Of a stretch of DNA of 42,061 bases, positions 7,932-32,819 are shown piece after piece. The DNA is from Pseudomonadota bacterium. Lineage in GTDB: Bacteria; Desulfobacterota; Desulfobacteria; Desulfobacterales; Desulfobacteraceae. A program made the translations under genes and the position numbers. The first letter of the stretch is position 1. Each line of letters begins with the position of its first letter. The notes below the pieces were generated by a model that worked only from the letters and a program-made list of their open reading frames with translations, was not told the DNA's origin and did not search any database. Location: assembly GCA_018821715.1 (NCBI GenBank), contig JAHJLN010000174.1, positions 1 through 42,061 on the forward strand, written 5' to 3'.

Positions 7932-9046
7932 TCATCGGAACACAACATCCTCCAGATATTCCGTATCCATGGCAGCATTCAACCTTTTACTTTTCACACT
8001 GCCTTTGAATATCTTATTGTTCCGTAATAAATTCAAAGCAATGTGCCTTATTGCAGCAAAATTCTCCGGGGCTGATCCTTTTCTTATCCTGCTTTCATCT
8101 TCCCGGAAGGCTATATCCAATACCCAATGTACTGAATTCTCTATTCCCCAGTGGCTTCTGACTGCATCTCCAAACTTTTTGGCATCGCAGTCAAGGCTCG
8201 ATATATAATACCGTTTCTCATGACTGCATTCACCTTTTATCTCACGGCTGCTCTCCACCATGCCAAGGCTTTTTAACCCGGCCCAGTTCTCTTTGTCATG
8301 CAGCCAGTCAATATCAGAGGTCATTACATATTTTCGGGTCTCAATCCGGCCATGATCCCCGTCTACCGTTTCGTACTCATCAAAGGCAAACCCTTCTTTT
8401 TTCATGTTTTCTATTTCCCTGAAAAACAATGCCGTATCTTTATAAAGAGCCTTGTGATTTTCTTTCAGGGCAAGAATATAATCGCCATCCTGATCCATGA
8501 TTGTGTCCGCTATCTTTTTCTGTGTTCCCATGGCGTCTATGGTTATGATGCATCCTGATACATCCAGCAACTTTAGAAGGTTGGGGATTGCTGTTATCTC
8601 ATTTGATTTTTCTTCTGTCTTCAGTTGACCCAGAACCACTTGATTGGAGGATGCCCATGCACTGATCATATGAATGGCTTTCTTATCATTTGACTGATCA
8701 TGTGAGCGTCTCAGGGTTTTACCGTCTATTGCTATTACCTGGCCGTTTGTCCGTTCTGTTACAGATCCGATCCAGTGTTTAAAACTATTTTGAAACTCAT
8801 TGGGATTCATCCTCTCAAAAATCCTGCCAAATGTATCATGTGACGGTATCCCATGCGGCAATTCCAAAAACCTTGAAAGCCATTTCTTGCGCTTTTTACC
8901 GAAATTTTCGATTTGTTCATAAGTATCAGCCCCGGCAATGACTCCACAAATTGCGATGATGATCACATCTATCAGTTTGTGGAGTTTATTATGATGCCGG
9001 TGATCCTCTATCCTTTTAAAAAAATCTTCTATCGTTTTTTAGGCAT
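7932..9046 (-). CDS. ISAs1-family transposase (start in a different frame; A-tract frameshift)
   Basis: The long open part (7932-8966) shows the family's AICGVIAGADTYEQIENFGK block, the DGKTLRRS motif, TIDAMGTQKKIA, and the C-terminal SHWGIENSVHWVLDIAFRED motif of the DDE nuclease. The conserved N-terminus (EDFFKRIEDHRHHNKLHKLID) lies upstream of 8966 in the same frame, but without a start codon. The only good start, an ATG at 9046 with AAGGAG 7 nt upstream, is in another frame and joins if one base is added to the A6 tract at 9035-9040. The gene is therefore frameshifted, uses slippage, or has a homopolymer sequencing error. Confidence 0.85.
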
Positions 9047-12157: not shown

Positions 12158-12308
12158 AAAAATCTGTCCATATCCAATCAATGGCCTGAATTCATAAAAA
12201 AACAGATCCCCAAATCTTATTTCCCATCCACGTTTTTCATATTCAGCTCCCTTGTTGAACGAAGCCGCTGCCGCGGCAGAAAAACAATTCAAATTAGTGT
12301 ATAACTCC

Positions 12309-12336
12309 TATAAGTGTTCAATTCTGGACACTTATA
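12309..12336 (+). repeat. hairpin just upstream of the IS91-type recombinase gene
   Basis: TATAAGTGT (12309-12317) and ACACTTATA (12328-12336) form a perfect 9-bp stem with a 10-nt loop, ending a few bases before the recombinase Shine-Dalgarno AAAGGAG. It may be part of the element's left end or a leader structure. I could not define the exact terminus. Confidence 0.4.
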
Positions 12337-13074
12337 AACCAAAGGAGTTTACCATGAACAAAACCCAAACAAAACGATTTAATGACTTCTATCAGCGTCA
12401 CTTAAGATTACTCAAACTTCAGGGCCTAAGTCACAGTACCATTGATAATTACGCCAGGGCCATCCGCAGGATTACCAAGTATTTTGACTGCTGCCCGGAT
12501 AAATTGACCCCGGACCAACTGGAAGAGTATTTTAGCCAGTTTCTTGAAACCCATTCCTGGAGTACGGTTAAAGTGGAACGAAACGGTCTGCAATTTTTCT
12601 GGAGACATGTGCTCAAGATTGACTGGCAGTGGATTAATATGATCAAGCCGCCAAAGGTCAAGACCATACCGGATATTCTCTCATCTGCTGAGATAGAAAC
12701 GCTCATTGGTACCACTCGACAATTACGTTACCGTGTATTCTTTTTGACCGCTTATTCCATGGGGTTGCGTTTATCAGAAGCGCTGTCACTCCAGGTCCGG
12801 GATATCGATGCCAAACTTAAACGGGTTCATATCCGGCATGGAAAAGGGCTTAAGGATCGGTTTGTGCCATTGCCGGATTTGACGTTACAGGCATTACGGG
12901 CTCTTTGGAGCAGACACCGTCATCCAAAATTGCTATTCCCGAATGCCAAGGGTTCTATGGAAACCATTCAAAAGGCAAAAACCCATCTGAATAAGGGCGG
13001 TACGCAACACGCCATGAAAGTTGCGGTCGCCGAATGTGGTATTAAAAAAAAGTCAGTATTCATTCGCTGCGCCA

Positions 13075-13415
13075 TTATGTGGAGTCAGATATAATGGGGA
13101 GTGTGGTTTGACAATCATACTGTTTCCTGTTGATTCATATCAAAACACTCCCCATAATAATTTTTACAAACTACACAACGAGTTCAGCCATTTCATTAAA
13201 TCACCATCTTCTTCCCACCTCGGAACAGTCTCTGGTACCAGATTTACATAGGCTTTTTCAATCGCTTTTCGTTTCATTTCACTATTAGCTCTGGCATAAA
13301 CTTCTGTCGTAGAACAATCAGCATGCCCCAGAAAATCACGGATGTAGATCAGATTAATATCGGATTGAAGCAAATGCATGGCCTTGGAATGGCGCTTATG
13401 GGGAGCTCCCCATAA
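13075..13415. mobile_element. small nested element with TTATG(T/G)GGAG ends inside the recombinase gene
   Basis: The inserted segment begins TTATGTGGAG (13075-13084) and ends CTCCCCATAA (13406-13415), a 10-bp inverted repeat with one mismatch. The same end motif recurs inside at about 13091, 13148 and 13397, giving several facing copies. CGCCA borders both sides (13070-13074 and 13417-13421, with one extra C on the right), compatible with a short target duplication. The segment carries a minus-strand fragment of a different tyrosine recombinase. It looks like a decayed, perhaps recombinase-mobilised element; a relation to the three-recombinase (RIT) elements is only a guess. Confidence 0.55.
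13164..13396 (-). pseudogene. C-terminal fragment of a second tyrosine recombinase
   Basis: On the minus strand the fragment reads [20 protein letters not shown], then LGHADCSTTEVYARANSEMK with the catalytic Tyr. It contains only the last third of a phage-integrase-type protein, ending with a normal stop at 13164. The N-terminal two thirds are missing; it joins the element's terminal repeat at about 13397. It differs clearly from the recombinase it interrupts. Confidence 0.7.
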
Positions 13416-13607
13416 CCGCCACAGCTTTGCCACACATTTACTTGAGCGCGGCTTAAGTCTTCGGCATATTCAATCCCTTTTGGGCCATTCCAGGCCGGAA
13501 ACCACCGCTCGTTACACCCACTTAACCGGTATCACTGAAAAAGAAAGCAGAATCACCATCAATGATCTGGTGAGCACCCTTCATGTTGATTTAAGGAAGG
13601 TGTGATC

Positions 13608-14657
13608 ATGGACATGGCTAAAATTATTAATCAATATTATACCACCTTTAAAACCAAATATGCCGCGACCTTGCTGCCCAGCCATTTGAAGGCATTAAAT
13701 GCCATTTGCCGCTGCCGCACACCTGATTCGGGTGAACTTTTTGTTCAATGCCCGGATTGCAGCCATGGGGAATGGAAGCCTTTATCCTGCGGTCACCGGA
13801 GCTGCCCGAAATGCCAGAACCATGAGGCAAGCCAATGGATTGACCGTCAGCAGGGAAAACTACTGCCGGTTCTTTATTTCATGACAACCTTTACATTGCC
13901 GTACCAGTTACGGTCTCTGGCCTGGCACCATCAAAAACAGGTCTATTCGATCTTTTTCTTTTGTGTTGCAAGCACCTTGAAGGACTTTGGGTTAAATTCC
14001 AAAAATCTGGGAGCCCAAATCGGCATGACCATGGTTTTGCATACCCATAACAGGAAACTGGATTATCATCCCCACATCCATGTCGTGATTCCCGGCGGCG
14101 GTGTTGATAAATCCAGACGTCAATGGAAAAAGAATAAAGGCAAGTACCTGTTTAACAAAAAAAACCTGGCTAAGGTTTTTCGTGCCCGTTTTCTGGCTGC
14201 ATTAAATGAAAACGGCCTGCCTATTCCCGAAAAAGTTCCTGGAGAATGGGTGGTTGACTGTTCCCATGTGGGCAAAGGACTCACCGCCCTGAAATATCTG
14301 TCCCGATATTTATACCGTGGGGTCATCAGTGAAAAAAATATTATTTCTAATCATGATGGCAAAATCACTTTCCGTTATGTTGAAAGCCGTACCGACAAAA
14401 TACGATATCGTACTCTCAATGGGGAAGACTTTTTATACCTGGTCATGCAACATGTCCTTCCCAAAGGTTTCAGAAGGGTGCGGGATTATGGGGTTCTTCA
14501 TGGTAATGCCAAAAAGCTGATGACTCTGGTTCAATTGATTTTGCATGTTATTATTTCCGGGATTCAACAAAGGCCCAGGCCTGTTTTTAAGTGTCCCTGC
14601 TGTCGGTCGGTAATGATTGTTTTAGGTTTTCGGCAGTTCGCATTGGAATCCGGATGA
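13608..14657 (+). CDS. IS91-family transposase, 349 aa
   Basis: The protein has the N-terminal zinc-binding region (CPDCSHGEWKPLSCGHRSCPKC), the HUH motif as DYHPHIHVVIPGGG, and the downstream YLSRYLYRGVIS segment carrying the candidate nucleophilic tyrosines, as in IS91/IS801 rolling-circle transposases. A second Cys pair (CPCC) lies near the C-terminus. The start at 13608 has AAGGAAGG 7 nt upstream; an in-frame GTG at 13602 overlaps the recombinase stop, so the two genes are translationally coupled. The gene appears intact, unlike its neighbour. Confidence 0.9.
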   Translation: MDMAKIINQYYTTFKTKYAATLLPSHLKALNAICRCRTPDSGELFVQCPDCSHGEWKPLSCGHRSCPKCQNHEASQWIDRQQGKLLPVLYFMTTFTLPYQLRSLAWHHQKQVYSIFFFCVASTLKDFGLNSKNLGAQIGMTMVLHTHNRKLDYHPHIHVVIPGGGVDKSRRQWKKNKGKYLFNKKNLAKVFRARFLAALNENGLPIPEKVPGEWVVDCSHVGKGLTALKYLSRYLYRGVISEKNIISNHDGKITFRYVESRTDKIRYRTLNGEDFLYLVMQHVLPKGFRRVRDYGVLHGNAKKLMTLVQLILHVIISGIQQRPRPVFKCPCCRSVMIVLGFRQFALESG

Positions 14658-14930: not shown

Positions 14931-15012
14931 CAAAACCAGGGGTTTTTTTAACCAAAACCAGGGGTTTTAAAAATGAATACCGGGTGTTTAAAAAAAATCT
15001 TTCAGGTGTTCA
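14931..15012 (+). promoter_or_regulatory. four 22-bp-phased repeats upstream of gvpA, candidate activator sites
   Basis: CAAAACCAGGGGTTTT occurs exactly at 14931-14946 and 14953-14968. Degenerate copies follow in the same phase: the core CCAGGGGTT becomes CCGGGTGTT in the 14975 unit and TCAGGTGTT in the 14997 unit. A constant 22-bp period is about two helical turns and would put all sites on one DNA face. A possible -10 hexamer TATTAT lies at 15041 without a good -35, as expected for an activated promoter. I did not find a sigma-54 signature. Confidence 0.45.
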
Positions 15013-15280
15013 CCCTATATCAATGCAGGATTAAACGATTTATTATAAAACCACGGTAAGTGTTTTCTCTCATACTTTTAATTACGACACCTTACTTGAT
15101 ATTATCATTCAGTTCATGAAGGGCACACTTAGAAATTTAACCGGGAAAAATTCGGGTTAAAAGAAAAATCCGAATGATTTACTGCATGCCAGGAAAAGGA
15201 GGTGGAATATTGGTTATGCCGAAACGCAACGGATGGATAAAACCCATCACTAATAATTTTTTTAAAAAAGGAGATTTACC

Positions 15281-15490
15281 ATGGCTGTTGAAAAAACAAA
15301 TGCATCTTCAAGTTTAGTTGAAGTTATTGACCGTATCCTTGATAAAGGCGTTGTCATAGATGCCTGGGCAAGGGTATCTCTTGTCGGTATCGAGCTTCTG
15401 GCCATTGAAGCCAGAGTGGTACTGGCCGGTGTTGAAACCTATCTGAAATATGCTGAAGCAGTCGGCCTCACAGCCCAAGCCGAAGCCTAA
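15281..15490 (+). CDS. gvpA: gas vesicle structural protein GvpA, 69 aa
   Basis: This is the main rib protein of the gas vesicle wall, a small amphiphilic subunit that assembles into a gas-permeable, water-excluding shell. The sequence has the family core: [20 protein letters not shown], then the beta hairpin [32 protein letters not shown]. Its length (69 residues) is normal. A perfect AAGGAG lies 8 nt upstream. It is the first gene of the operon and is separated from the rest by a terminator-like structure, which would make GvpA the most abundant product. Two further GvpA/J paralogues lie at 25371 and 27096. Confidence 0.97.
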
Positions 15491-15525
15491 CCCATAAAGG
15501 GAGATTGGCAGGTATCCTTGGGATC

Positions 15526-15550
15526 ATTAAAGGTGTCGCACCCCTTTAAT
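15526..15550 (+). repeat. hairpin downstream of gvpA
   Basis: ATTAAAGG (15526-15533) and CCTTTAAT (15543-15550) form a perfect 8-bp stem with a 9-nt loop and no T run. It could stabilise the 3' end of the gvpA transcript. Confidence 0.45.
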
Positions 15551-15600
15551 AAATCGGTGTCATCTTAAGCATATCTGAAATCTCCGGGGTATCAATAAAA

Positions 15601-15672
15601 CCCCAAACATATCTGACAAAACTCCCTTAATTTTAAAACCGGTTATTGCCCGATATGTTTGAGGTTTTTTTT
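15601..15672 (+). terminator. terminator or attenuator between gvpA and the rest of the operon
   Basis: CCCCAAACATATC (15601-15613) pairs with GATATGTTTGAGG (15652-15664) with one mismatch and is followed by eight T (15665-15672). The loop is long (38 nt). The next gene begins 18 bp later, so partial read-through would give much gvpA mRNA and less of the assembly genes, as known for other gvp operons. Confidence 0.7.
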
Positions 15673-15689
15673 AAGCAAAAGGTGAATTG

Positions 15690-16346
15690 ATGGACACCCT
15701 GGAAAAATTAGATGGTACCAGACAATTGAGAGTATTGGCCGCAAGTATTGTTGATTCCTATGAGATCAGGGTAGACACTGTTTGTTCCTTAATGAGCCAG
15801 GCCAATAATTTTCTTCATTCTTTCCAATTGGAACTTGACGAGATGATAAATCGTCTGCGGATCAACCTGACGAATTCTCAGAGCCTCAGGCGAAAAGATT
15901 TCGATTCCATGATCCACGATATCCTTGACCGCCACCGGAAAATTGAAAATGAAGCTATCCTGAGCCTGTCTAACTTTCAGGAAGAAGAACAGGAGATGAT
16001 ACGGTCTTTAAGAGATCTCATTGCCTTCAGAAGCCAAAACCCGAACAAGGATATAGAAGCCCTGCTGGAAGATATGCTGATACAACAGAAAAACAGGGAG
16101 CATGATATCGTCAGGATATTAAAACAGATTCAGGTTGAGCAGGAAGAATTAAAAACAGGGCTGAAAAAGTTGCTGGAAAAGGGTGAAGATATCAGGATTA
16201 AAGATTACAAGGCAATGCTCAATGCCATCCGGACACAACACAGTGAATATAACCGGGAGCTGTTTGACCTGTTGGATGACTTTGATCTTGTCAGAAACAG
16301 GGTGAATGACCAATGGCAGAAAATCGTCAGCACAAACAGTATATAA
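15690..16346 (+). CDS. coiled-coil protein of four 51-residue repeats, candidate GvpC analogue, 218 aa
   Basis: After 17 leading residues the protein consists of four ungapped units at residues 18-68, 69-119, 120-170 and 171-218 (last unit 48 long). Units 2-4 begin KDF, KDI and KDY. Position 25 is Leu in all four, 28-29 is FQ, FQ, IQ, FD, 35 is M, M, L, V, and 39 is L, L, L, W. It is helical and highly charged, with no signal peptide. Its place between gvpA and gvpN is where GvpC, the repeat protein that clamps the outside of the vesicle, is encoded in cyanobacteria and haloarchaea; known GvpC repeats are shorter. The ATG at 15690 (AAAGGTG upstream) is preferred over the adjacent TTG at 15687. 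The function is inferred. Confidence 0.75.
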   Translation: MDTLEKLDGTRQLRVLAASIVDSYEIRVDTVCSLMSQANNFLHSFQLELDEMINRLRINLTNSQSLRRKDFDSMIHDILDRHRKIENEAILSLSNFQEEEQEMIRSLRDLIAFRSQNPNKDIEALLEDMLIQQKNREHDIVRILKQIQVEQEELKTGLKKLLEKGEDIRIKDYKAMLNAIRTQHSEYNRELFDLLDDFDLVRNRVNDQWQKIVSTNSI

Positions 16347-16497
16347 CACTTACCGCCAATCTGAGCAAAGTATCAGATTCGCATTTTAAAAAACGCTATA
16401 AAGATATCCTTTGACGCTATGGAGGCGTTATTTCCCTCCAATGGCTCACCCGGCCTTGCTTTAAGCATGTCTTTTCAAGGTTAAAAGGAGAAGAAGA

Positions 16498-17457
16498 ATG
16501 TCAGTATCTAAAGATTTGGAAAGATTGGTTGAAGAGATTGGAAATGCGAGAAATGACCGTAGAGGACTGATGAATAACCTGAAGGAAAATCTTGGCCGGA
16601 TCAAACAGGAGACGGCTGGGTTACGGCAGGAGTCAGTGAATTTTTTGAAATCAATTGGAAAAGACAGAGAAGAGATGACCCTGTCTTTGCACCGGCGACT
16701 GGATAAGGATAGAGCCGGTCTTGGTGTAATGGAAAAAGAACGCAGGAAAGAAACGGGAATGGATCGTAGTAATCGTATCAGCTCGATCAGGGAATTGAAA
16801 AATGAACTCAAATCAAATCTGGAAGGGTTTATGTCAGATATGAAGGGCTATGTTACTGTTCGGAAAGCAGATGCAAAGGAAGACAAAATACACCGTCTTG
16901 GAGACATCAAGTTCATGAAGACTGAGGTTGGCAGGATGAAACAAGAGATCCAAACCAGTCTGAAACAAATCCGTAACAGTCAGACGAAAGTGGGAGAGGA
17001 GCTTTCCACATTTTTGAAAACCTTTGTTTCGGATATCAAGGCAATAGAAAAGGGTCGAAAATCCAGTGTGAATGAGTTTCTTGGGTCTGTAAAGGCAGAA
17101 CTTTCGGCCATGGCATCTGCATGGGGAAATGTTCTTTCCAGTGTCAGTCCGGATGAACCGGAAACCGTTCAGAAGCGGGTTGCACCTGAACCTGACAAAG
17201 AAGAGGAGACCGGCGAAGAGCCGGAAGAGCAAAGGATGTCAGATGTGAATGGTAAGCCGGAAGACAGCTATTATGATACAGGGCCGATAAAAGAAAAGGT
17301 TGTAACCACCCTGTCTGACTATTCAGAGGGTCTTAAAATGACTCAGTTGGCCGAGCTGCTTGATATTGAACAATGGCGGATGCTTATTCCTGTTATGCGG
17401 GATCTTCTGGAAAGCAAACTGATAAAAAAAGAAGGTGGCTTTTATTTTGCTTCATAA
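16498..17457 (+). CDS. gas vesicle operon coiled-coil protein with winged-helix-like C-terminus, 319 aa
   Basis: I do not recognise a named family. Residues 1-205 are almost continuous charged helix with recurring F[L/M] positions (49, 111, 172, 194). An acidic, Pro/Glu-rich linker (about 217-255) follows. The C-terminal 60 residues (VVTTLSDYSEGLKMTQLAEL, then DIEQWRMLIPVMRDLLESKL and a final beta strand) look like a small winged-helix fold. It may be a second GvpC-like wall protein or an assembly adaptor; the winged-helix part could bind protein rather than DNA. AAAAGGAG precedes the start. A strong hairpin follows its stop. Confidence 0.7.
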   Translation: MSVSKDLERLVEEIGNARNDRRGLMNNLKENLGRIKQETAGLRQESVNFLKSIGKDREEMTLSLHRRLDKDRAGLGVMEKERRKETGMDRSNRISSIRELKNELKSNLEGFMSDMKGYVTVRKADAKEDKIHRLGDIKFMKTEVGRMKQEIQTSLKQIRNSQTKVGEELSTFLKTFVSDIKAIEKGRKSSVNEFLGSVKAELSAMASAWGNVLSSVSPDEPETVQKRVAPEPDKEEETGEEPEEQRMSDVNGKPEDSYYDTGPIKEKVVTTLSDYSEGLKMTQLAELLDIEQWRMLIPVMRDLLESKLIKKEGGFYFAS

Positions 17458-17463
17458 ATAGTT

Positions 17464-17491
17464 CATGGCCGGAATTTTTATTCCGGCCATG
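17464..17491 (+). repeat. perfect 12-bp hairpin between the coiled-coil gene and gvpN
   Basis: CATGGCCGGAAT (17464-17475) and ATTCCGGCCATG (17480-17491) pair perfectly around a TTTT loop. There is no T run after it, so it is more likely an mRNA processing or stability element than a terminator. Confidence 0.6.
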
Positions 17492-17581
17492 GAACACTTC
17501 CAAGGGAGCCCTATGATAACATGGGCTTGCAAAAAGGATGGGGGCAGTCTTTTAAAATCAAATAAAAAATAAGGAGCTACA

Positions 17582-18529
17582 ATGTCAACTGCAATTGCAA
17601 GTACTGTTTTAGAACCTGTCTCTCAACCGGATTTTGTAGAAACGGAATATATAAAAGATGTTACCAACAGGGCACTGGGGTATATCAAGGCAGGTTTCCC
17701 CGTGCACTTAAGAGGCATTTCAGGCACAGGAAAGACAACTATTGCCATTCATATCGCGGCAAAGATAGGACGTCCCCTTATCCTTATCCATGGGGATGAA
17801 GAATTTTCAACCTCTGATCTGATAGGGAGCGAACAGGGGTACAACATCCGGAAAATCAGGGATAATTTTATTCATACTGTTCTTAAGACAGAAGAGAACT
17901 TGAGTAAACAATGGATTGATAACCGGTTGACCATGGCATGCAAATTCGGGTTTACCCTCCTTTATGATGAATATACCCGCTCAAGACCAGAAGCAAACAA
18001 TGTCCTTTTGTCGGTCCTCCAGGAGAAAATGCTGGATATTCCAACCACAAGTCATGGAAATTCCAATTACATGAAGGTTCATTCTGATTTCACAGCGCTT
18101 TTTACCAGCAATCCTGAAGAATATGCCGGAGTTCACCGCAGCCAGGATGCCTTAAGAGATCGTATGGTGACCATTGATCTTGAATATTTTGACGATGAGA
18201 CAGAAATTCAAATTGTCCAGGGCAAATCAGGGCTGTCCTATAAAGATGCAAAAAAGATAGTAAATATTGTCCGGGGGTTGAGGGATTCCGATGTTTTTGA
18301 GTTTTCCCCCACTGTCCGGGGGTGCCTGATGGTGGCCAAATCCGTCCAGGTGTTCAAGGCAAAGGTCCATAAGGATGACAAGGTCTTTCGCCAGATCTGC
18401 TTTGACATTCTCTCTTCGGAAACCAGCCGTATCGGCAGCAAATCGAACAAGGAAAGAGTGATGCAGGTCCTTTTAAAACTGATGGATCAGTATTGCAATG
18501 ACATTTATCAAGGAGAATCCGATGGATAG
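17582..18529 (+). CDS. gvpN: gas vesicle protein GvpN, AAA+ ATPase of the MoxR/CbbQ type, 315 aa
   Basis: The Walker A motif is GISGTGKTT (residues 45-53), Walker B is FTLLYDEY, and the sensor region contains ALFTSNPEEYAG, typical of GvpN and of CbbQ/NorQ relatives. GvpN is needed for vesicles to widen from small bicones to full cylinders, presumably by ATP-driven remodelling. AAGGAG precedes the ATG. Its 3' end overlaps the following small gene by 8 bp, so the two are translationally coupled. The downstream CDC48-type ATPase is a separate AAA+ protein. Confidence 0.95.
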   Translation: MSTAIASTVLEPVSQPDFVETEYIKDVTNRALGYIKAGFPVHLRGISGTGKTTIAIHIAAKIGRPLILIHGDEEFSTSDLIGSEQGYNIRKIRDNFIHTVLKTEENLSKQWIDNRLTMACKFGFTLLYDEYTRSRPEANNVLLSVLQEKMLDIPTTSHGNSNYMKVHSDFTALFTSNPEEYAGVHRSQDALRDRMVTIDLEYFDDETEIQIVQGKSGLSYKDAKKIVNIVRGLRDSDVFEFSPTVRGCLMVAKSVQVFKAKVHKDDKVFRQICFDILSSETSRIGSKSNKERVMQVLLKLMDQYCNDIYQGESDG

Positions 18530-18875
18530 TTCACCCCATGTTAAAAAGAGCATGAAAAGAGGCTGTTCCAAAAGAAATACCGCAATAAAACACAGCCTTA
18601 CCACAAAATCCAGGCCGGTTAAATCCAGTTATCTGGAAATATTTATCATGGATAAGCACCGCTCCCGGTTAAAACAGGAAAAAGCAAATCTGACCCGGAG
18701 GATCAATCAGATCCATAAAGAGCTTGCATCCCTTGATAAGGCAATCGCTGCAATGGGCAGAGATGTCAAAGAGAATATCGGCTCAATGTCTCCCTTGACA
18801 ACGATAAAATCCATCAAGGAAATCGATACCATAAATGAAATCGATACCATGCATAAAATGCAGTTAAAATATTGA
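18522..18875 (+). CDS. small basic GvpV-like protein, 117 aa
   Basis: The first 37 residues are basic and Ser/Lys-rich; a helical coiled-coil block (YLEIFIMDKHRSRLKQEKAN, then LTRRINQIHKELASLDKAIA) follows, and the tail contains a near-duplication (IKEIDTINEIDTMHKM). The start at 18522 has AAGGAG 6 nt upstream, better than the in-frame ATG at 18498. The position directly after gvpN and before the first gvpF/L is that of gvpV in the Serratia gas vesicle cluster, and the SYLEIF...DKHR pattern resembles GvpV as I remember it. The assignment is tentative. Confidence 0.6.
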   Translation: MDSSPHVKKSMKRGCSKRNTAIKHSLTTKSRPVKSSYLEIFIMDKHRSRLKQEKANLTRRINQIHKELASLDKAIAAMGRDVKENIGSMSPLTTIKSIKEIDTINEIDTMHKMQLKY

Positions 18876-18935: not shown

Positions 18936-19673
18936 ATGTCTCAGACAGGTAAATATATATACTGTATTATTGAAGAAAAATATGACCGTAACTTTGGCAC
19001 CAACGGGATCGGCAACAGAAAGGATCTGGTTTCAACCCTCAATTATAATGGCATTTCTGCTGTCATCAGTGATACCCCCATGTCAAAGTATGTCATCAAC
19101 AGGGAAAATCTTACTGCCCATGAAATGGTTATTGAGCAGGTAATGAAAGACTATACCGTATTGCCGGTTCGATTCTGTACCATTGCTTCAAATTTAGAAG
19201 AGATAAGAAGCCTTCTTAGAAGGCGCTATCATGAATTCAAGCGTCTTTTCAGGGAGATGGACAATAAGATTGAGATGGGATTAAAGGTGAGCTGGAAGCA
19301 GATGGAGGCCATATATGGTGAAATATCTTCTGTAAGTCCGCTGATCAAGAAACTCAAATCAAATATTGCAGGCCTTGATGCAAAAAATAAAATCGAGGTG
19401 GGAAAACAGGTTCAAAAGGCCCTGGCTGAAAAAAAAGAGGATGACGGGCAGATGATTACAAGAAGATTTAAATGCATTTCAGTGGATATAAAACAAAACA
19501 AAATCATCGGTGATGCCATGCTGTTGAACCTTGCCTGTCTGATTGACAGAACCCATGAAAAGGAATTTGATAATACGGTTAATGATCTGGCAGCAAAATA
19601 TGAAAACAGATTTCTTTTCAAATATGTAGGCCCGATCCCTCCCTTTAATTTCGTTAACATAGTCGTCACATAA
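18936..19673 (+). CDS. gvpF: gas vesicle accessory protein GvpF/GvpL family (copy 1), 245 aa
   Basis: The family pattern is clear: KYIYCIIEE at the N-terminus, then INRENLTAHEMVIEQVMKDY and TVLPVRFCTI, a long helical middle (GLKVSWKQMEAIYGE), and the C-terminal YVGPIPPFNFVNI signature. GvpF/L proteins are minor components thought to bind nascent GvpA and prevent its premature aggregation. This is the simplest of four paralogues in the operon. A weak AAAGGTGG precedes the start. Confidence 0.93.
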   Translation: MSQTGKYIYCIIEEKYDRNFGTNGIGNRKDLVSTLNYNGISAVISDTPMSKYVINRENLTAHEMVIEQVMKDYTVLPVRFCTIASNLEEIRSLLRRRYHEFKRLFREMDNKIEMGLKVSWKQMEAIYGEISSVSPLIKKLKSNIAGLDAKNKIEVGKQVQKALAEKKEDDGQMITRRFKCISVDIKQNKIIGDAMLLNLACLIDRTHEKEFDNTVNDLAAKYENRFLFKYVGPIPPFNFVNIVVT

Positions 19674-20262: not shown

Positions 20263-22371
20263 ATGGAAATAAAATCTATTACGCTAAAGGTAATTGAGGC
20301 CAATTCAAAGGATATGGGCAGGGGAATCATCCGCCTTGACCCCGGTGATTTTAAAAAAATTGATGCGGATGTGGGCGATGTTGTGCAGGTCAAGGGCAAA
20401 AGAGTGACTGCGGCCAAAGTCATGCCCGCGTATATTGAGGACCGGGAAAAGGATCTGGTCCGCCTGGACGGCATGACACGGGACAATGCCCAAGTCGGTC
20501 TGGATGAAAAGGTGATCATTCAAAAAGCGGTCTGCAACCCGGCCAGAAAAATATCTGTCACCCCTCTTACCCAGGTTCGATCCCTTGACAGTAAGTATAT
20601 CGGTACCCTCCTGGAAGGTATTCCCCTGGTGAACGGTGATATTGTCAGGGCAAAATTATTTGGCGCAAAAACCCGGGATTTTAAGGTCACAGCGACAAAA
20701 CCGGATGGGATTGTGATCATCAAACCGGACACGATCATTGAAATAAAGGAAGAAAAATCCGAGTTCAAGTCATCCAGGGTGTCTTATGAAGATATCGGTG
20801 GGCTTGCCAAAGAAATCCATCGTATCCGGGAGATGATCGAACTGCCCTTAAAATATCCCCAGGTGTTTGAAAAATTGGGAATTGACCCGCCCAAGGGGGT
20901 TCTTCTCCACGGACCGCCAGGCTGTGGCAAGACATTGATTGCAAGGGCGGTGGCAAACGAGACCGATGCAAATTTCCAGCATTTGACCGGGCCTGACATC
21001 ATGGCCAAGTTCTATGGGGAGAGCGAGGCCAATTTAAGGAAAATATTTGAAAAAGCCTCAGCAGCTGCGCCTGCCATTATATTTTTTGACGAGATTGATG
21101 CCATCGCGCCCAAGCGTGAAGACATGGGGGGTGAAAAACAGGTTGAAAAACGGGTGGTTGCCCAGCTTCTGGCCCTAATGGACGGCCTTTCTTCAAGAGG
21201 ACAGGTGATCGTCATCGGTGCCACCAATATCCCCAATGTGATTGATCCGGCCCTGCGGCGGCCCGGCCGGTTTGACAGGGAGATAGAAATCAGTATCCCG
21301 GATAAAAACGGGCGGTTCAAGATATTAAACATCCATACCCATGGCATGCCGCTTTCCGAGGAAGTTGATCTGGTTAAACTTTCTGAAATCACCCATGGGT
21401 ATGTGGGGGCTGATATCGAAGCACTCTGCAGGGAGGCTGCCATGGTCAGCCTTAGACGGTTTTTCCCAACCTTTGATTTCGGGCAGGAAGAGATCCCCAT
21501 TGACAGCCTGCTGGATCTTCAGGTGACCATGGATGATTTTTTAGAAGCCATGAAGGAGATTGAACCCTCGGCCATCAGAGAGGTCTTCTCTGAAGTGCCC
21601 AATGTGAAATGGATTGATGTGGGAGGGCTTGAGGATGTTAAAAACCTTTTAAGAGAAACGGTTGAGTGGCCCTTGAAATATGCCTCTCTTTTTGATTTTG
21701 CCCACACCCGTCCGGCCCGGGGGATTTTGTTTCATGGAGAGCCCGGAACAGGCAAAACCCTTCTTGCAAAGGCTGTGGCAACAGAATCCGGTGTGAATTT
21801 CATCTCCATCAAAGGACCGGAACTGTTATCCAGATGGGTGGGAGACAGTGAAAAAGGGATCCGGCAGATTTTTAAAAAAGCAAGGCAGGCAGCGCCCTGT
21901 GTTGTTTTTTTTGACGAAATCGACAGCCTGGCTCCCAAAAGGGGTGCCTTCGGCTCTTCAGCAGTAACCGACCGTGTCATCAGCCAGTTTTTAAGTGAAA
22001 TGGACGGAATAGAAGAATTAAAGGGCATTCTTATCCTGGCTGCCACCAACCGGATTGATATGATTGATGCGGCCATGTTGAGATCAGGAAGGTTTGATTT
22101 CCAGCTTGAGCTGAAAACTCCGGATAAAGATGCCAGGATAGAGATATTTAAAGTGCACACAAGGGGTAAGCCCCTGGGAAAAAATATTGATTTTCATCGT
22201 CTTGCCGACGAGACAGACACATTAAAAGGAGCAGATATAGAATTGATCTGCAACACCGCAGCCATAACAGCCATAAAGGAATTTATTAAAAAAGGCAAAA
22301 AAGATCATACAAAATTCAGCATTTTAATGAAGCACTTTGACCACGCCATTCAAAAAGGACAGATAAGATGA
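20263..22371 (+). CDS. CDC48/p97/VAT-type double AAA+ ATPase, 702 aa
   Basis: An N-terminal double-psi-barrel-type substrate domain (about 1-175) is followed by two AAA+ modules. D1 has Walker A GPPGCGKT (217-224) and Walker B FFDEIDA (D276, E277), with the arginine-finger region [13 protein letters not shown]2 has Walker A GEPGTGKT (492-499) and Walker B FFDEIDS (D551, E552), with [11 protein letters not shown]. Length and order match archaeal VAT/CDC48, an unfoldase that extracts or remodels proteins. Its place in the middle of the operon, overlapping the next gene by 4 bp, suggests remodelling of gas vesicle assembly intermediates. The archaeal-like family suggests ancient transfer, an inference. 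Confidence 0.93.
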
Positions 22372-23402
22372 ATAAGCGGCAATATTTATACGGATTCGTG
22401 TTTCAAGAATCCTGGCAAAACTTCACCTGCAAGGGACTTGATGACCAGGAGGTTTATTTTAACAATCGCGGGAGCCTTTCCCTGGCCATGAGCGATTTTA
22501 AGATGACTGATTTTTCTGCATTGCCCCAGAAAGAGCTGTTACTCTATTTAAGGCAGCATCATCTTGCAATTGAAACAATAATGGAAAATTTCTGCATTAT
22601 CCCTTTTAAGTTCGGGACAATGATTGAAAGCCCGGATCAAATCATAAAGATATTTACAAGCAGTTATAACCAGATCAGAAAGAAATTTGCACTCCTAAGA
22701 GATATGGTTGAGCTGGATGTTATCGTGAGTTTTAATCATTTTGACCAGGTCTTCAATGAAATCAGGGAAATTCCTTCCATTAAACACTTCAAACAGGAAA
22801 TGCCTTCCGGATCAACACAAGATCTTTATAACGCACAGATAAAACTTGGGAAAATGGTGAATTCCCTCCTTGATGAAAAGCGTAATGGGATAAGAAAGAT
22901 TATTTTTGACCGAATGTCGGATGTATCAGCAGACATCCTTACAAATGATATTACCCAGGATTCAATGATCACAAGCCTGGCTTTTTTAATCAAAAAAAAG
23001 GAGCATCCGGTTCTTGAAAGGCGTATTGAAGATCTTGATCACTATTTTAACGGCACTATTGATTTCAAGATCGTGGGCCCTTTGCCCTTTTACAGTTTTT
23101 ATACCCTGATCCTTCATAAAGGGAATTTCAAGGAGCTTGATTTTGCAAGGCAGACATTAAATCTGCCGGAAAAAGCAGATCTGTCCGAAATAAATGAATC
23201 CTATAAAAAATTAAGTAAAATCTGCCATCCGGATAATGACAGCCATAATAAAGATCTTGCCCGCAGGTTTGAAGACCTTAATAAATCCTATAAAATCATT
23301 ATGGAATACATCAGCGATAACAGGTGTTCCTTTTTAAAGGAGGATGTTGAACAATGGATCAGGGTCAAGGCTTTTGAGAGGGAAAATGCGGTTATGTTAT
23401 GA
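22368..23402 (+). CDS. GvpF/L family protein fused to a DnaJ J-domain (copy 2), 344 aa
   Basis: Residues 1-250 are a divergent GvpF/L domain, from [15 protein letters not shown] through [18 protein letters not shown] to the closing [14 protein letters not shown]. Residues about 256-325 are a J-domain: [31 protein letters not shown] with the diagnostic HPD at 287-289, then [18 protein letters not shown]-domains stimulate Hsp70 ATPase, so this fusion would bring Hsp70 to GvpA or to a GvpF/L assembly. An Hsp70 gene, now truncated, lies at the operon's end. It overlaps both neighbours by 4 bp (ATGA), showing tight coupling. Confidence 0.9.
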
Positions 23403-29050: not shown

Positions 29051-29650
29051 TCATTCTTCTGGAATTGCCCATTTAAGTTTACCCTGCTCTTTAAGTTTCC
29101 GCTGATAGCGGTAAACGGTCGCTTCACTCACTCCTAAGCCCTTTGCTATTCCTTTTACACTTTTATTTCGGTTTTGTAACGCGTCAAAGGCTAATGTTTC
29201 TTTTTCATCTGTCAATGCTTTAGGGCGGCCTCCGTTTCTCCCTCTTGCTCTTGCAGCAGCAAGACCAGCCATTGTTCTTTCTCTTATCCTGTCTCGTTCA
29301 TGCTCTGCTAATAGCGCAAATATCCCAAACACAAGCCTTCCGTTTGAAGACGTTGTATCAAACAAATCTTCTGTCAAGCTTTTGAATCCAATATTTCTAT
29401 TGCGCAGATCATCAACAATATTCAACAGATCAACTGTTGAGCGTCCCAGCCTGTCAGATTTCCATACAATGAGTGTATCGCCGTCTCTTATATAGTTAAG
29501 GCATTCCTGTAATCCTGGACGATCTGCTTTTGCACCGCTGGCCACATCATAAAAAATCTTGTAGCAATTTATCTTTTTTAAACTGTCTTCCTGTAGTTGA
29601 AGATTTTGCTTGTTGGTACTAACTCGTATATAACCTATGTCTTTGCCCAT
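29051..29650 (-). CDS. tnpR: Tn3-type serine resolvase TnpR, 199 aa
   Basis: A serine recombinase with the nucleophile Ser11 in GYIRVSTNKQNLQLQ, the active-site block VWKSDRLGRSTVDLL, the long E helix (FGIFALLAEHERDRIRERTM) and a C-terminal helix-turn-helix (SVKGIAKGLGVSEATVYRYQ). It resolves cointegrates at the adjacent res region. It is divergent from tnpA across a 196-bp spacer. The length is normal for TnpR-type resolvases. Confidence 0.93.
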   Translation of the reverse strand: MGKDIGYIRVSTNKQNLQLQEDSLKKINCYKIFYDVASGAKADRPGLQECLNYIRDGDTLIVWKSDRLGRSTVDLLNIVDDLRNRNIGFKSLTEDLFDTTSSNGRLVFGIFALLAEHERDRIRERTMAGLAAARARGRNGGRPKALTDEKETLAFDALQNRNKSVKGIAKGLGVSEATVYRYQRKLKEQGKLKWAIPEE

Positions 29651-29846
29651 GAGAATCTCTTTTAATTAATTCTTGATTCAAAATTGTGATAATGCTATCA
29701 AAACCCGTTCTATTTTAGAATTTTGATTGATTGTTTTTGCAATAAGTTTTGAAAGTGAATTTATACGGATTTGAACAAATATTCAATAAAAAATAAAACC
29801 CTGTCAAAAACCAACGTTTTTGATAGACTTGATGAAAAGGTAAAAG
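29651..29846. other. res recombination region between tnpR and tnpA
   Basis: The spacer holds several dyads of one motif: TGTCAAAAAC (29802-29811) facing GTTTTTGATA (29816-29825), and TATCAAAA (29696-29703) facing TTTTGATT (29721-29728), with more TTGAT/ATCAA half-sites between. Multiple resolvase-binding dyads in a divergent tnpR/tnpA spacer are what a res site looks like. The two promoters must also lie here. Exact subsites I, II and III were not assigned. Confidence 0.65.
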
Positions 29847-32819
29847 ATGCCGGCACTCAAAGAAACCGCATATCCCTATTTCCCTAAAAATATAAAGCCA
29901 GAAGAACTGGACAGACTTTACACCCCCACAGTCAAGGAAATTGAATACACAAAAACTTTTACACGAACAAAAGAAGCCAGATATTGTTTTTTGGTGCTTT
30001 TAAAAAGCTTTCAGCGGTTGGGGTACTTCATCCAAGCCTCATCAGTCCCTCTAATAGTTGCAAATCATATCGCAACTGCCATTCATTTTTCCAATTCTAA
30101 AAAAATGTTAAAAAATTATGACCAGTCACGTCTAAAAAGGCAGCATATAAATAAAATCAGATCATTTTTAAAGGTTAAAATCTTTAATAAAGATGCAAGA
30201 AAGTGTTTAAGAAATGCCATGGAAGATGCATCAAAATCAAGACAAGAGCTTGTAGATATTATAAATAGCGGGATTGACGAATTAATACACGATTATTATG
30301 AACTACCTTCATTTAGCACGATCGAAAAAGAAGCAAAGAGATCAAGGGCAGTAACCAACAGGCAAATTTATCAAGAAATTTATGATCGGATTAGCAAAAA
30401 AGATCGTATAAAGATGAATGCTGTTTTAAAAGTAGATCCGGAATCAAAGAGATCGCTCTGGAATGAAGTCCGGCGGGATGCAGGAAAAGCCACGTTGGAA
30501 GAGATAAACAACATTATTAATAAATTGTCCTGGCTTCGAGAAACCACAGGTTTTTCTGACCCATTCGAAGATATACCTTATGTAAAAATAAATCACCTGG
30601 CAGTAGAAGCGAAAACCCTTGATGTTGCCCGCGTTCGTACTGTCACATCATCAAAACGATATTCTTTGATCGCTGCATTAACAAAAGTAACAATTGCCCA
30701 CACAATAGATGATATTTGCGATATTATGATAAAAAAACTGGGCAGTATTCATAACAAAGGCAGAGAGGCCTTAAAAGATTACAATGAAAAAAATCAAGAA
30801 ACGACCGACGCAATTGTTACCAGCTATAAAAATATACATGACTGTGTATCCGGACACGAGTCACCAGAAGAAAAGATTACAAAAATAGAGCGTCATTTTT
30901 TCAGCAACCCAAATCTTGTTGAATATTCAAAAAGCCATTCGATATATGGGGGTAAAAACTATTTTCGTTTTCTTTTGCCGTATTTTAAAAATTATCGAAC
31001 AAAATTTTTCAAGATTCTTGATTCATTGGATCTTAATTCCACAAGTTCCGATCAATCCTTGGAAAAGGCCATAGCATTTGCCCTTTCTCACAAAAAGTCC
31101 AGGACTCCGTGGCTCCCTATCGAAAACGAGCCAATTAATGTCTCATGGATTCCAGACAACTGGTGGTATTTGGTAACTGGCCTGAAGCGTCGAAAACTTC
31201 GCCCCAAGCAAATAAACAGAAGGCAATTTGAACTCTGCCTGTTTTCGCAAATTACTCAAGAACTAAAGAGCGCAGATCTTTGTGTTGAGGGAAGCGAAAA
31301 ATATTCAGACTTCAGAAAACAGCTGATTTCCTGGGAAGAATTCTATAAAAAACTTTCTCGCTATAGCAAGTTGCTTGAACTTCCTGTTGACGTAGATGAT
31401 TTTATTCTTCACCTCCAAAGCCTGTTGGTCTCGGAGGGTGAAAAACTGGATCACTCATATCCGCAAGATCAGGAATTTTCAATTGATGAAAATGGAGAAC
31501 TAAAGCTAAAAAGGCTAAAAGCCAAATCAAAACCCGAATATCTGGATGCGATCTCTCAATTGATAACAAAGCGAATGCCCAAGAGAAATATACTGGATAT
31601 TCTCATTGATACACAAAAAATATTGAACTGGTGTCGGGTTTTTGGACCTGTATCCGGTTTTGAGTCAAAACTGAAAGATCCTATAACCAGCTATATTGTT
31701 ACTAATTTTTGTTATGGCTTTAATCTCGGCCCTGTTCAAACATCCCGATCTCTGCCGATATTAGATCGGAAACAGATCGAGTGGGTAAATCGTCGCCATA
31801 TCACAGAAAAGATGCTTCAAGATGCCATAGACATTTTTATCAACGCGTATAATAAGTTTAGTCTTCCAAAATATTGGGGTGATACATCTTCTGTCTCTGC
31901 GGATGGCACCAGATGGGATGTATACGAAAATAATTTGCTGGCAGAATATCATGTCCGATATGGGAATTATGGTGGTATTGGATATTATCATGTTACAGAC
32001 ACTTATATTGCTTTTTTCTCTCGGTTTATTTCTTGTGGTGTGTTCGAGGGGCATCATATTTTAGATCCATTCTTCCAAAATAAAACAGATATTAAGCCTG
32101 ACACTGTACATTCCGACACCCATGGCCAAAGCCTGGCTATTTTTGGCTTGTCATTTCTGTTAGGAATTAAGTTAATGCCACGTATTGCGAAATGGAAAAA
32201 CCTTAAAATTTTTAAATCTGATGTTGAATCATATATAAATATTGATCCTGTTTTCTCAAAAGAAAAAATAGACTGGGAACTAATCCGTAAACATTTATTT
32301 GACATGATTCGGATTGCCATTTCAATTCAAGAAGGCAAAATTATGCCATCAACAATTTTACGGCGATTAGGAAGTTATAGCCGGAAAAACAAACTTTATT
32401 TTGCTTTTCAAGAATTAGGCAAAGTCATTAGGAGTGCATATCTTCTGAAATACTTGAGAAAACCAGATCTTCGACGTAAAGTAAATCATGCCACCACAGT
32501 TAGTGAAGCCTTTAATGATTTTATTCAATTTGTTACATTTGGGAATCAGGGTATAATTGCCGAAAACACAAGAGATCAACAAAGAAAAATAATAAAATAT
32601 GGCCATTTGGTTGCCAATGCTTTAATCTTTATGAATGTTTACGATCAAAGTACCGTTATGAACGATCTATTAAATGAAGGTGTAAAAATAACTCCGGAAA
32701 TCGCTATAGATTTGAATCCTTATCGGAAAAAACATATAAATCGATTTGGTACCTATTTTTTAGATGAAGAAAGGGAATGTCCGGAAATAGACTATATGTT
32801 AACGGTCGCAGAAACTTGA
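29847..32819 (+). CDS. tnpA: Tn3-family transposase TnpA, 990 aa
   Basis: A full-length Tn3-type DDE transposase (members are usually about 950-1020 residues). The catalytic core shows SADGTRWDVYENNLLAEYHV with the first Asp, GGIGYYHVTDTYIAFFSRFI, and the second Asp in TVHSDTHGQSLAIFGLSFLL, followed by the IKLMPRIAKWKNLKIF block; the Glu lies in the C-terminal helical part. It cuts at the 38-bp ends and drives replicative transposition. AAAAGG precedes the ATG. The reading frame is intact, so the element may still be active. Confidence 0.95.
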   Translation: MPALKETAYPYFPKNIKPEELDRLYTPTVKEIEYTKTFTRTKEARYCFLVLLKSFQRLGYFIQASSVPLIVANHIATAIHFSNSKKMLKNYDQSRLKRQHINKIRSFLKVKIFNKDARKCLRNAMEDASKSRQELVDIINSGIDELIHDYYELPSFSTIEKEAKRSRAVTNRQIYQEIYDRISKKDRIKMNAVLKVDPESKRSLWNEVRRDAGKATLEEINNIINKLSWLRETTGFSDPFEDIPYVKINHLAVEAKTLDVARVRTVTSSKRYSLIAALTKVTIAHTIDDICDIMIKKLGSIHNKGREALKDYNEKNQETTDAIVTSYKNIHDCVSGHESPEEKITKIERHFFSNPNLVEYSKSHSIYGGKNYFRFLLPYFKNYRTKFFKILDSLDLNSTSSDQSLEKAIAFALSHKKSRTPWLPIENEPINVSWIPDNWWYLVTGLKRRKLRPKQINRRQFELCLFSQITQELKSADLCVEGSEKYSDFRKQLISWEEFYKKLSRYSKLLELPVDVDDFILHLQSLLVSEGEKLDHSYPQDQEFSIDENGELKLKRLKAKSKPEYLDAISQLITKRMPKRNILDILIDTQKILNWCRVFGPVSGFESKLKDPITSYIVTNFCYGFNLGPVQTSRSLPILDRKQIEWVNRRHITEKMLQDAIDIFINAYNKFSLPKYWGDTSSVSADGTRWDVYENNLLAEYHVRYGNYGGIGYYHVTDTYIAFFSRFISCGVFEGHHILDPFFQNKTDIKPDTVHSDTHGQSLAIFGLSFLLGIKLMPRIAKWKNLKIFKSDVESYINIDPVFSKEKIDWELIRKHLFDMIRIAISIQEGKIMPSTILRRLGSYSRKNKLYFAFQELGKVIRSAYLLKYLRKPDLRRKVNHATTVSEAFNDFIQFVTFGNQGIIAENTRDQQRKIIKYGHLVANALIFMNVYDQSTVMNDLLNEGVKITPEIAIDLNPYRKKHINRFGTYFLDEERECPEIDYMLTVAET

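Follow-up and report, generated by a model that had tools for sequence, protein, structure and literature searches.

We analyzed a window of 42,061 nucleotides (contig JAHJLN010000174.1 of assembly GCA_018821715.1, a member of Desulfobacteraceae), which carries a gas vesicle operon. The features at the start of this operon are as follows.

15281..15490, + strand: gvpA, main shell protein, 69 aa (Pfam PF00741, 6.3e-16; NCBIfam GvpA, 1e-38)
15597..15668, + strand: AU-rich long hairpin with a T run after it, immediately before the P51 gene; putative terminator- or attenuator-like function
15690..16346, + strand: P51, 218-aa helical repeat protein, probable diverged GvpC paralogue
16498..17457, + strand: ORF319, probably the better GvpC counterpart (family HMM finds Nostoc GvpC, E 4.7e-10)
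17582..18529, + strand: gvpN, AAA ATPase (TIGR02640, 1e-99)

Downstream of gvpN are gvpF-type, Hsp20-type and further genes, those further down named by resemblance only. Among seven proteins scanned, GvpA, GvpN, the GvpF-type protein (18936-19673) and the Hsp20-type protein passed a curated Pfam or NCBIfam cut-off, and P51, ORF319 and a 125-aa ORF fell below these cut-offs. The original prediction, which was made from the DNA sequence, correctly placed P51 between gvpA and gvpN, but did not mention that a second helical ORF (16498-17457) is located there too. The region 22368-23402 codes for a GvpF-type protein that may be a chaperone fusion, as its C-terminus is J-domain-like (HPD motif recognized by eye). 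ORFs resembling transposases, integrases and resolvases, identified by reading translations by eye, flank the operon (7932-8966, 12252-14657 and 29051-32819), suggesting that the gas vesicle operon may travel with mobile elements.

The leader between gvpA and P51 (15491-15690, approximately 200 bases) could be aligned between the window and five related loci, with a mean column identity of 88%. Its hairpin (15597-15668) had a minimum free energy of -19.3 kcal/mol (z -4.7), and none of 200 shuffled sequences folded equally well; one related locus had a shorter T run and had lost one pair. Covariation was negligible, with a double change in two of 66 predicted pairs, too few to call. A consensus terminator scan did not flag the hairpin, and a search of positions 15000-18600 against Rfam gave no match. 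The hairpin could hold P51 and ORF319 at a lower dose than gvpA.

The ORF at 15690-16346 indeed codes for 218 residues, and the ungapped period of 51 residues that had been proposed for it was confirmed. When P51 was compared with itself at offsets 20-109, the highest ungapped BLOSUM62 score (83; 31 identities over 167 positions) was found at offset 51, and the runner-up was its multiple, 102, which scored 13. This score was not reached at any offset in the same range by any of 1500 plain shuffles, nor by any of 1500 shuffles that preserved the hydrophobic/polar pattern. Offset 51 also won in all 12 core orthologs, and in each case none of 400 plain shuffles equaled it. Weaker secondary offsets of P51 were 18 and 33 locally and 69 overall. 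Conserved positions within the unit were likewise as predicted: in 48 units (four from each of 12 orthologs), position 25 was Leu in 46 and Phe in the other two, and positions 28, 35 and 39 were hydrophobic in 100%.

The 51-residue period of P51 is real, but its earlier description, four exact repeats, was overstated. The register is exact and the sequences are not: with the earlier phasing, mean identity was 23% between units 2 and 3, 18% between units 1 and 2, and 17% between units 1 and 3, and pairs involving unit 4 had 15% (2-4), 13% (3-4) and 7% (1-4). Exact sequence repeats are ruled out by these values. In profile comparisons of the same units (reversed controls ≤3.2%), units 2 and 3 matched over nearly their full length (93.3%), unit 1 matched unit 2 in the second half only (79.8%), and unit 4 matched in its first half only (70.9% with unit 3, at positions 1-30, and 42.2% with unit 2); pair 1-3 was weak (13.1%) and pair 1-4 not significant (1.7%). 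Because the earlier units 1 and 4 match by halves only, the presence of four full units was rejected. With units re-phased to residues 36-86, 87-137 and 138-188, all three pairs gave in-register matches of 92.9-94.7% (HHalign, 44-50 columns), and P51 is therefore better described as three full tandem units and a partial fourth, as follows.

15690..15794, + strand: residues 1-35, N-terminal segment common to ORF319, outside the repeat
15795..15947, + strand: unit 1, residues 36-86 (HHalign 94.7% with unit 2, 92.9% with unit 3)
15948..16100, + strand: unit 2, residues 87-137 (HHalign 94.7% with unit 1, 93.1% with unit 3)
16101..16253, + strand: unit 3, residues 138-188 (HHalign 92.9% with unit 1, 93.1% with unit 2)
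16254..16346, + strand: residues 189-218 plus stop codon, a degenerate and incomplete fourth unit that retains hydrophobic positions 25, 28, 35 and 39

Residues 1-42 had no HHalign match to units 2 and 3, and their match to unit 1 consisted of only the seven residues common to both stretches.

We then checked the occurrence of P51 in related genomes. Of 86 genomes in the family of the source genome, seven had gvpA; five of these seven also had P51, which was absent from all 79 genomes without gvpA. In a sample of the class, 24 of 389 genomes had a gvpA-family match (one below cut-off). P51 adjoined gvpA in 13 of these (two cut by contig ends), eight had a gvpA-gvpN interval without P51, and three were not decidable. 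The eight P51-free clusters imply that P51 is not needed for gas vesicles generally. In a sample of the phylum, matches were found in 12 of 395 genomes, including the source genome and one already known. P51 directly followed gvpA in all 13 class loci that held it and in nine of ten further phylum loci; in the remaining one (L063), another helical ORF intervened. In the window, and in all ten of the fetched class loci that carry P51 together with gvpA and gvpN, P51 was located between the other two genes and was followed by an ORF319-type protein, which was split into two ORFs in one locus (L019). No P51 match was detected in a plasmid collection. On another contig (C440, locus L012), the source genome had a second such cluster, with an 83% identical P51; all 14 window genes that were compared were present there at 74-100% identity. 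Contamination of the assembly is given as 5.85%, so the second cluster possibly reflects a strain mixture.

Gaps in the alignment of the 12 core orthologs (211-218 aa) were confined to the first seven columns and the tail; from residue 8 onwards, the alignment was gap-free up to the C-terminal end. The alignment was extended with six of ten remoter relatives to give 18 P51-type sequences. Internal indels in these six were mainly in the linker near residues 113-118; single-residue gaps also occurred close to residue 63 and to the N-terminus, and the C-terminal tails differed. Twelve ORFs, relatives or neighbours, were compared from ten phylum genomes: the best local offset was 51 in three (G655, G496 and G568) and 58 in two (G599 and G586), and the other seven, which include two neighbours rather than clear orthologs (G599b and G599c), peaked at 100 (then 49), 99 (then 48), 48, 55, 98, 18 and 44. 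Since the best offset of remoter relatives was often not 51, this spacing holds firmly within the core group and varies beyond it. One of these loci (L062, genome G599) had three GvpC-like ORFs in tandem, with offsets of 58, 18 and 44, the last two beside a run of N; these tandem ORFs are a further expansion of the GvpC-like family.

In eight of the ten phylum loci, a further ORF matched the profile of the ORF319 type or of the type found in P51-free clusters; of the two exceptions, L066 ends at a contig edge, and in L063 the helical ORF preceding P51 matched the P51 profile only. In each of the eight P51-free class clusters, just one ORF of this kind separated gvpA from gvpN. We searched 1838 stop-to-stop stretches from 13 P51-free loci with an ORF319 HMM, which detected the gvpA-gvpN ORF of six P51-free clusters above the inclusion threshold (0.043 and 0.048 in the other two of the eight). 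It also detected the annotated Nostoc GvpC (E 4.7e-10, with a bias of 13.5 bits) and a single stretch from a Methylosinus locus; Halobacterium GvpC was not found in this set. In HHalign comparisons, ORF319 matched the P51-free-cluster type at 98.0% and the single Nostoc sequence at 78.9% (reversed controls ≤0.3%). Because its profile finds both Nostoc GvpC and the gvpA-gvpN ORFs of P51-free clusters, ORF319 is, as judged from sequence profiles, the better counterpart of GvpC, with P51 as an extra gene beside it.

ORF319-type proteins varied in length (311-450 aa in the class set, called from the first start codon). Several members had strong repeat offsets of 18, 58 or 65, and most members of the P51-free type had strong offsets of 33, 40 and 73 (or 113). 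In the window, ORF319 itself was hardly above shuffled sequences (scores of 45 at offset 130 and 43 at 65, versus 41). The ORF319-type proteins of L024 (G146) and L032 (G087) had many near-identical 18-residue units of five helical turns each, in L024 of the EVADLISEFKAEGPERAR type. The AF2 model of ORF319, which is of low confidence (mean pLDDT 58.4, pTM 0.23), contained helices 3-118 and 126-213, a predicted helical rod over approximately residues 1-213 followed by a small C-terminal helical part. For the protein at 16498-17457 and its counterparts in L025-L031, judging by motif, we take the C-terminus of ORF319-type proteins to be a small winged-helix-like domain and that of the P51-free cluster type to be presumably a helix-hairpin-helix-like domain.

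The relationship of P51 to GvpC was detected through ORF319. HHalign matched P51 to the ORF319 family at 95.9% (E 6e-9; reversed control 0.8%), or 96.3% with 18 sequences; neither 40 column shuffles (maximum 1.6%) nor 40 shuffles of 18-column blocks (maximum 58.3%) came up to this value. Most of this signal came from P51 residues 1-50 (89.2%), residues 46-218 alone giving 20.7%, and P51 residues 1-42 matched the N-terminus of ORF319 at 91.8% over 28 columns. When the P51-free loci were searched with an HMM of the 18 P51-type sequences, four matches had E ≤0.1 (3e-4, 0.0017, 0.0054 and 0.018), each of which was the gvpA-gvpN ORF of a P51-free cluster. An HMM of the 51-position repeat unit found one GvpC-type ORF above the inclusion threshold (3.7e-4) and one below it (0.27) among the 1838 stretches; Nostoc GvpC was not found. 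Direct HHalign comparisons of P51 gave at most 1.0% with Nostoc or Halobacterium GvpC and only 2.3% and 9.4% with the GvpC-type ORFs of P51-free clusters. Similarly, P51 matched no Pfam or NCBIfam GvpC repeat model at E ≤1, including PF01304/TIGR02641 and the haloarchaeal 32-residue repeat model PF05465, and none of the 12 orthologs matched Pfam GvpC models at E ≤0.05. In the same searches, control Nostoc GvpC matched PF01304/TIGR02641 at 7.5e-48 and 3.2e-39, and control Halobacterium GvpC matched PF05465 at 3.4e-74; in NCBIfam only the Nostoc control matches. A sequence search of PDB with the 12 orthologs gave nothing below E 0.48.

P51 thus appears homologous to GvpC-type proteins in a broad sense, by the indirect route of ORF319, and we conclude that it is probably a diverged paralogue of the GvpC counterpart, outside the named GvpC repeat families. 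The original prediction, a candidate new GvpC type, was supported in this indirect way as far as the relationship is concerned. However, the failure of P51 to match GvpC models that both controls matched suggests an extra paralogue rather than "the" GvpC of the operon, and P51 as the sole GvpC candidate was rejected because ORF319 matches Nostoc GvpC better. The N-terminal segment common to P51 and ORF319 makes a gene duplication likely.

The original prediction had also proposed that a 51-residue repeat would imply a different spacing along GvpA ribs. According to passages of PMC9994262 and PMC10185304, GvpC is a helix that runs along GvpA ribs with one 33-residue repeat per four GvpA, and GvpA subunits are spaced at ∼12.7 A at the radius of GvpC. 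A straight helix of 51 residues would be 76.5 A long, or 6.02 GvpA at this spacing; the value ranges from 5.88 to 6.32 for spacings of 13.0 to 12.1 A, so the fit depends on diameter. As a general rule, the proposal was unsupported: repeat offsets did not favour whole numbers of GvpA, either in eight selected lengths (P 0.17) or in 16 distinct best offsets (those of the ORF319 type, the P51-free type and the remoter relatives, plus 33; P 0.68), and a GvpA-lattice rule that fits no better than random was rejected. Whole helical turns of 3.636 residues fitted the same 16 offsets better (P 0.0016), although the fit was poor for 27, 48, 99, 100 and 130, and several offsets fitted neither rule. The eight selected lengths, which left out 27, 48, 55, 98, 99, 100, 113 and 130, all fitted helical turns, and no random set out of 20,000 equaled their fit; for the five non-composite lengths, P was 0.0015. 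As the value of 3.636 came from P51 itself, the helical-turn rule is a hint rather than proof; the common constraint may be the helix face and not the rib lattice. Hydrophobic periodicity peaked at 99 degrees per residue in P51, 98.5 in Nostoc GvpC and 103.5 in Halobacterium GvpC (heptad, 102.9). A 51-residue repeat always gives a coherent angle near 100, and Halobacterium GvpC peaks at 103.5, which makes this periodicity weak evidence.

Our preferred interpretation, to which we assign a probability of roughly one half, is that P51 of these sulfate-reducing bacteria is a diverged GvpC paralogue and most likely a second shell-associated protein, with a putative GvpA-binding and mechanical role. 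The observations that support it are the repeat, the ORF319 homology, the position in the operon, co-occurrence with gvpA, and the conserved length of core-group proteins. In this model, core-group P51 would be held at about three and a half amphipathic helical units of 51 residues. Its helices would lie against the outside of GvpA ribs, hydrophobic face towards the ribs, either alongside ORF319 molecules or in between them, and P51 would thereby stiffen or size the vesicle. A more specific version has two GvpC-type belts on one vesicle, a variable-length ORF319 and a near-fixed-length P51 whose unit spans six GvpA (76.5 A versus 6 x 12.7 A), the two registers setting width or stiffness; we regard this version as rather unlikely.

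The AF2 model of P51 and the low-confidence bundle matches raise a serious alternative, the main rival to a shell-associated P51: P51, though of GvpC ancestry, would fold into a compact bundle of antiparallel helices and serve GvpA or ORF319 as a chaperone or assembly factor, without being a stable shell component. The model was all-helical (helices 9-61, 68-112, 118-164, 170-182 and 189-216), with linkers at 62-67, 113-117 and 165-169 that are spaced ∼51 residues apart, and in a PDB fold search its best matches were designed four-helix maquettes (TM about 0.5). P51 also has more large hydrophobic residues (ILMFVWY; 35%) than the GvpC-type sequences compared (25-29%). Helices broken by linkers, in place of one rod, and this high hydrophobic content would speak against the shell interpretation and would also suit a bundle, as would the indel-free stretch of core orthologs from residue 8 to the C-terminus and the concentration of remoter indels in one linker. 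On the other hand, the model, built with three sequences, is of low confidence (mean pLDDT 64.8, pTM 0.45), so that even the helical state of P51 is a tentative prediction, and the best fold match had E 0.052, with nothing below E 0.05. Moreover, tandem homologous units in a bundle need no fixed spacing, and the P51 gene is placed among shell genes. On balance, we consider a bundle possible, but would not expect it.

Two other explanations were considered. P51 could be an adaptor or clustering protein, whose GvpC-like N-terminus docks on the vesicle while the repeat helices tie vesicles together or to another cell structure. This would agree with the N-terminal segment being the part most clearly common to ORF319, the remainder having diverged, but P51 contains no known domain (Pfam, NCBIfam) and clustering was unsupported by our tests, and we consider this role unlikely. 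Finally, the 51-residue period might be a generic feature of amphipathic coiled coils with nothing specific to it, as self-alignment is common in helical proteins, the secondary offsets of P51 also score, and remoter relatives often prefer other offsets. However, offset 51 topped all others in every core ortholog, shuffles fell short (hydrophobic-pattern shuffles for the window protein, plain shuffles for the orthologs), and units 1-3 matched pairwise at 93-95% by profile. Barring an error in the ortholog, shuffle and unit-profile tests, they refute a generic period, which we regard as very improbable.

The interpretation of P51 as a second shell-associated protein bears on the use of gas vesicles. 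An excerpt of PMC9501494 describes gas vesicles as strengthened and shaped by GvpC, and passages of PMC10344784 present GvpC as a handle for engineering gas vesicles as ultrasound reporters and report that vesicles have been produced in E. coli from a Desulfobacterium vacuolatum cluster. A second GvpC-like gene that is conserved and of near-fixed length would be a further engineering handle. In searches of one open-access library, no paper paired gas vesicles with a 51-residue repeat, nothing was found on a gvp gene cluster with GvpC in Deltaproteobacteria, and a second GvpC or GvpC paralog together with gas vesicles matched only as 'two GvpC'.

Compared to known systems, P51 resembles cyanobacterial GvpC (PF01304/TIGR02641; Anabaena flos-aquae and Nostoc) in that the gene is located between gvpA and gvpN (Nostoc), the size is similar (218 aa versus 193 aa in Anabaena, as given in an excerpt of PMC9501494), and both consist of amphipathic helical tandem units of almost the same periodicity (99 versus 98.5 degrees in Nostoc). 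In contrast, the unit is 51 rather than 33 residues long and poorly conserved, neither PF01304/TIGR02641 nor a direct profile comparison gives a match, and a second GvpC-type gene adjoins P51. Haloarchaeal GvpC (PF05465) likewise has degenerate helical repeats and a gene between gvpA and gvpN, but its repeats are 32-39 residues long and followed by a C-terminal globular domain, according to the same excerpt of PMC9501494; it is also strongly acidic (net -53 in residues 1-255) and has no match to P51. The ORF319-type proteins are encoded in the same operon, are helical and share the homologous N-terminal segment (91.8%), whereas they differ from P51 in their variable length, other repeat offsets, an extra C-terminal part and an HMM-detectable similarity to Nostoc GvpC.
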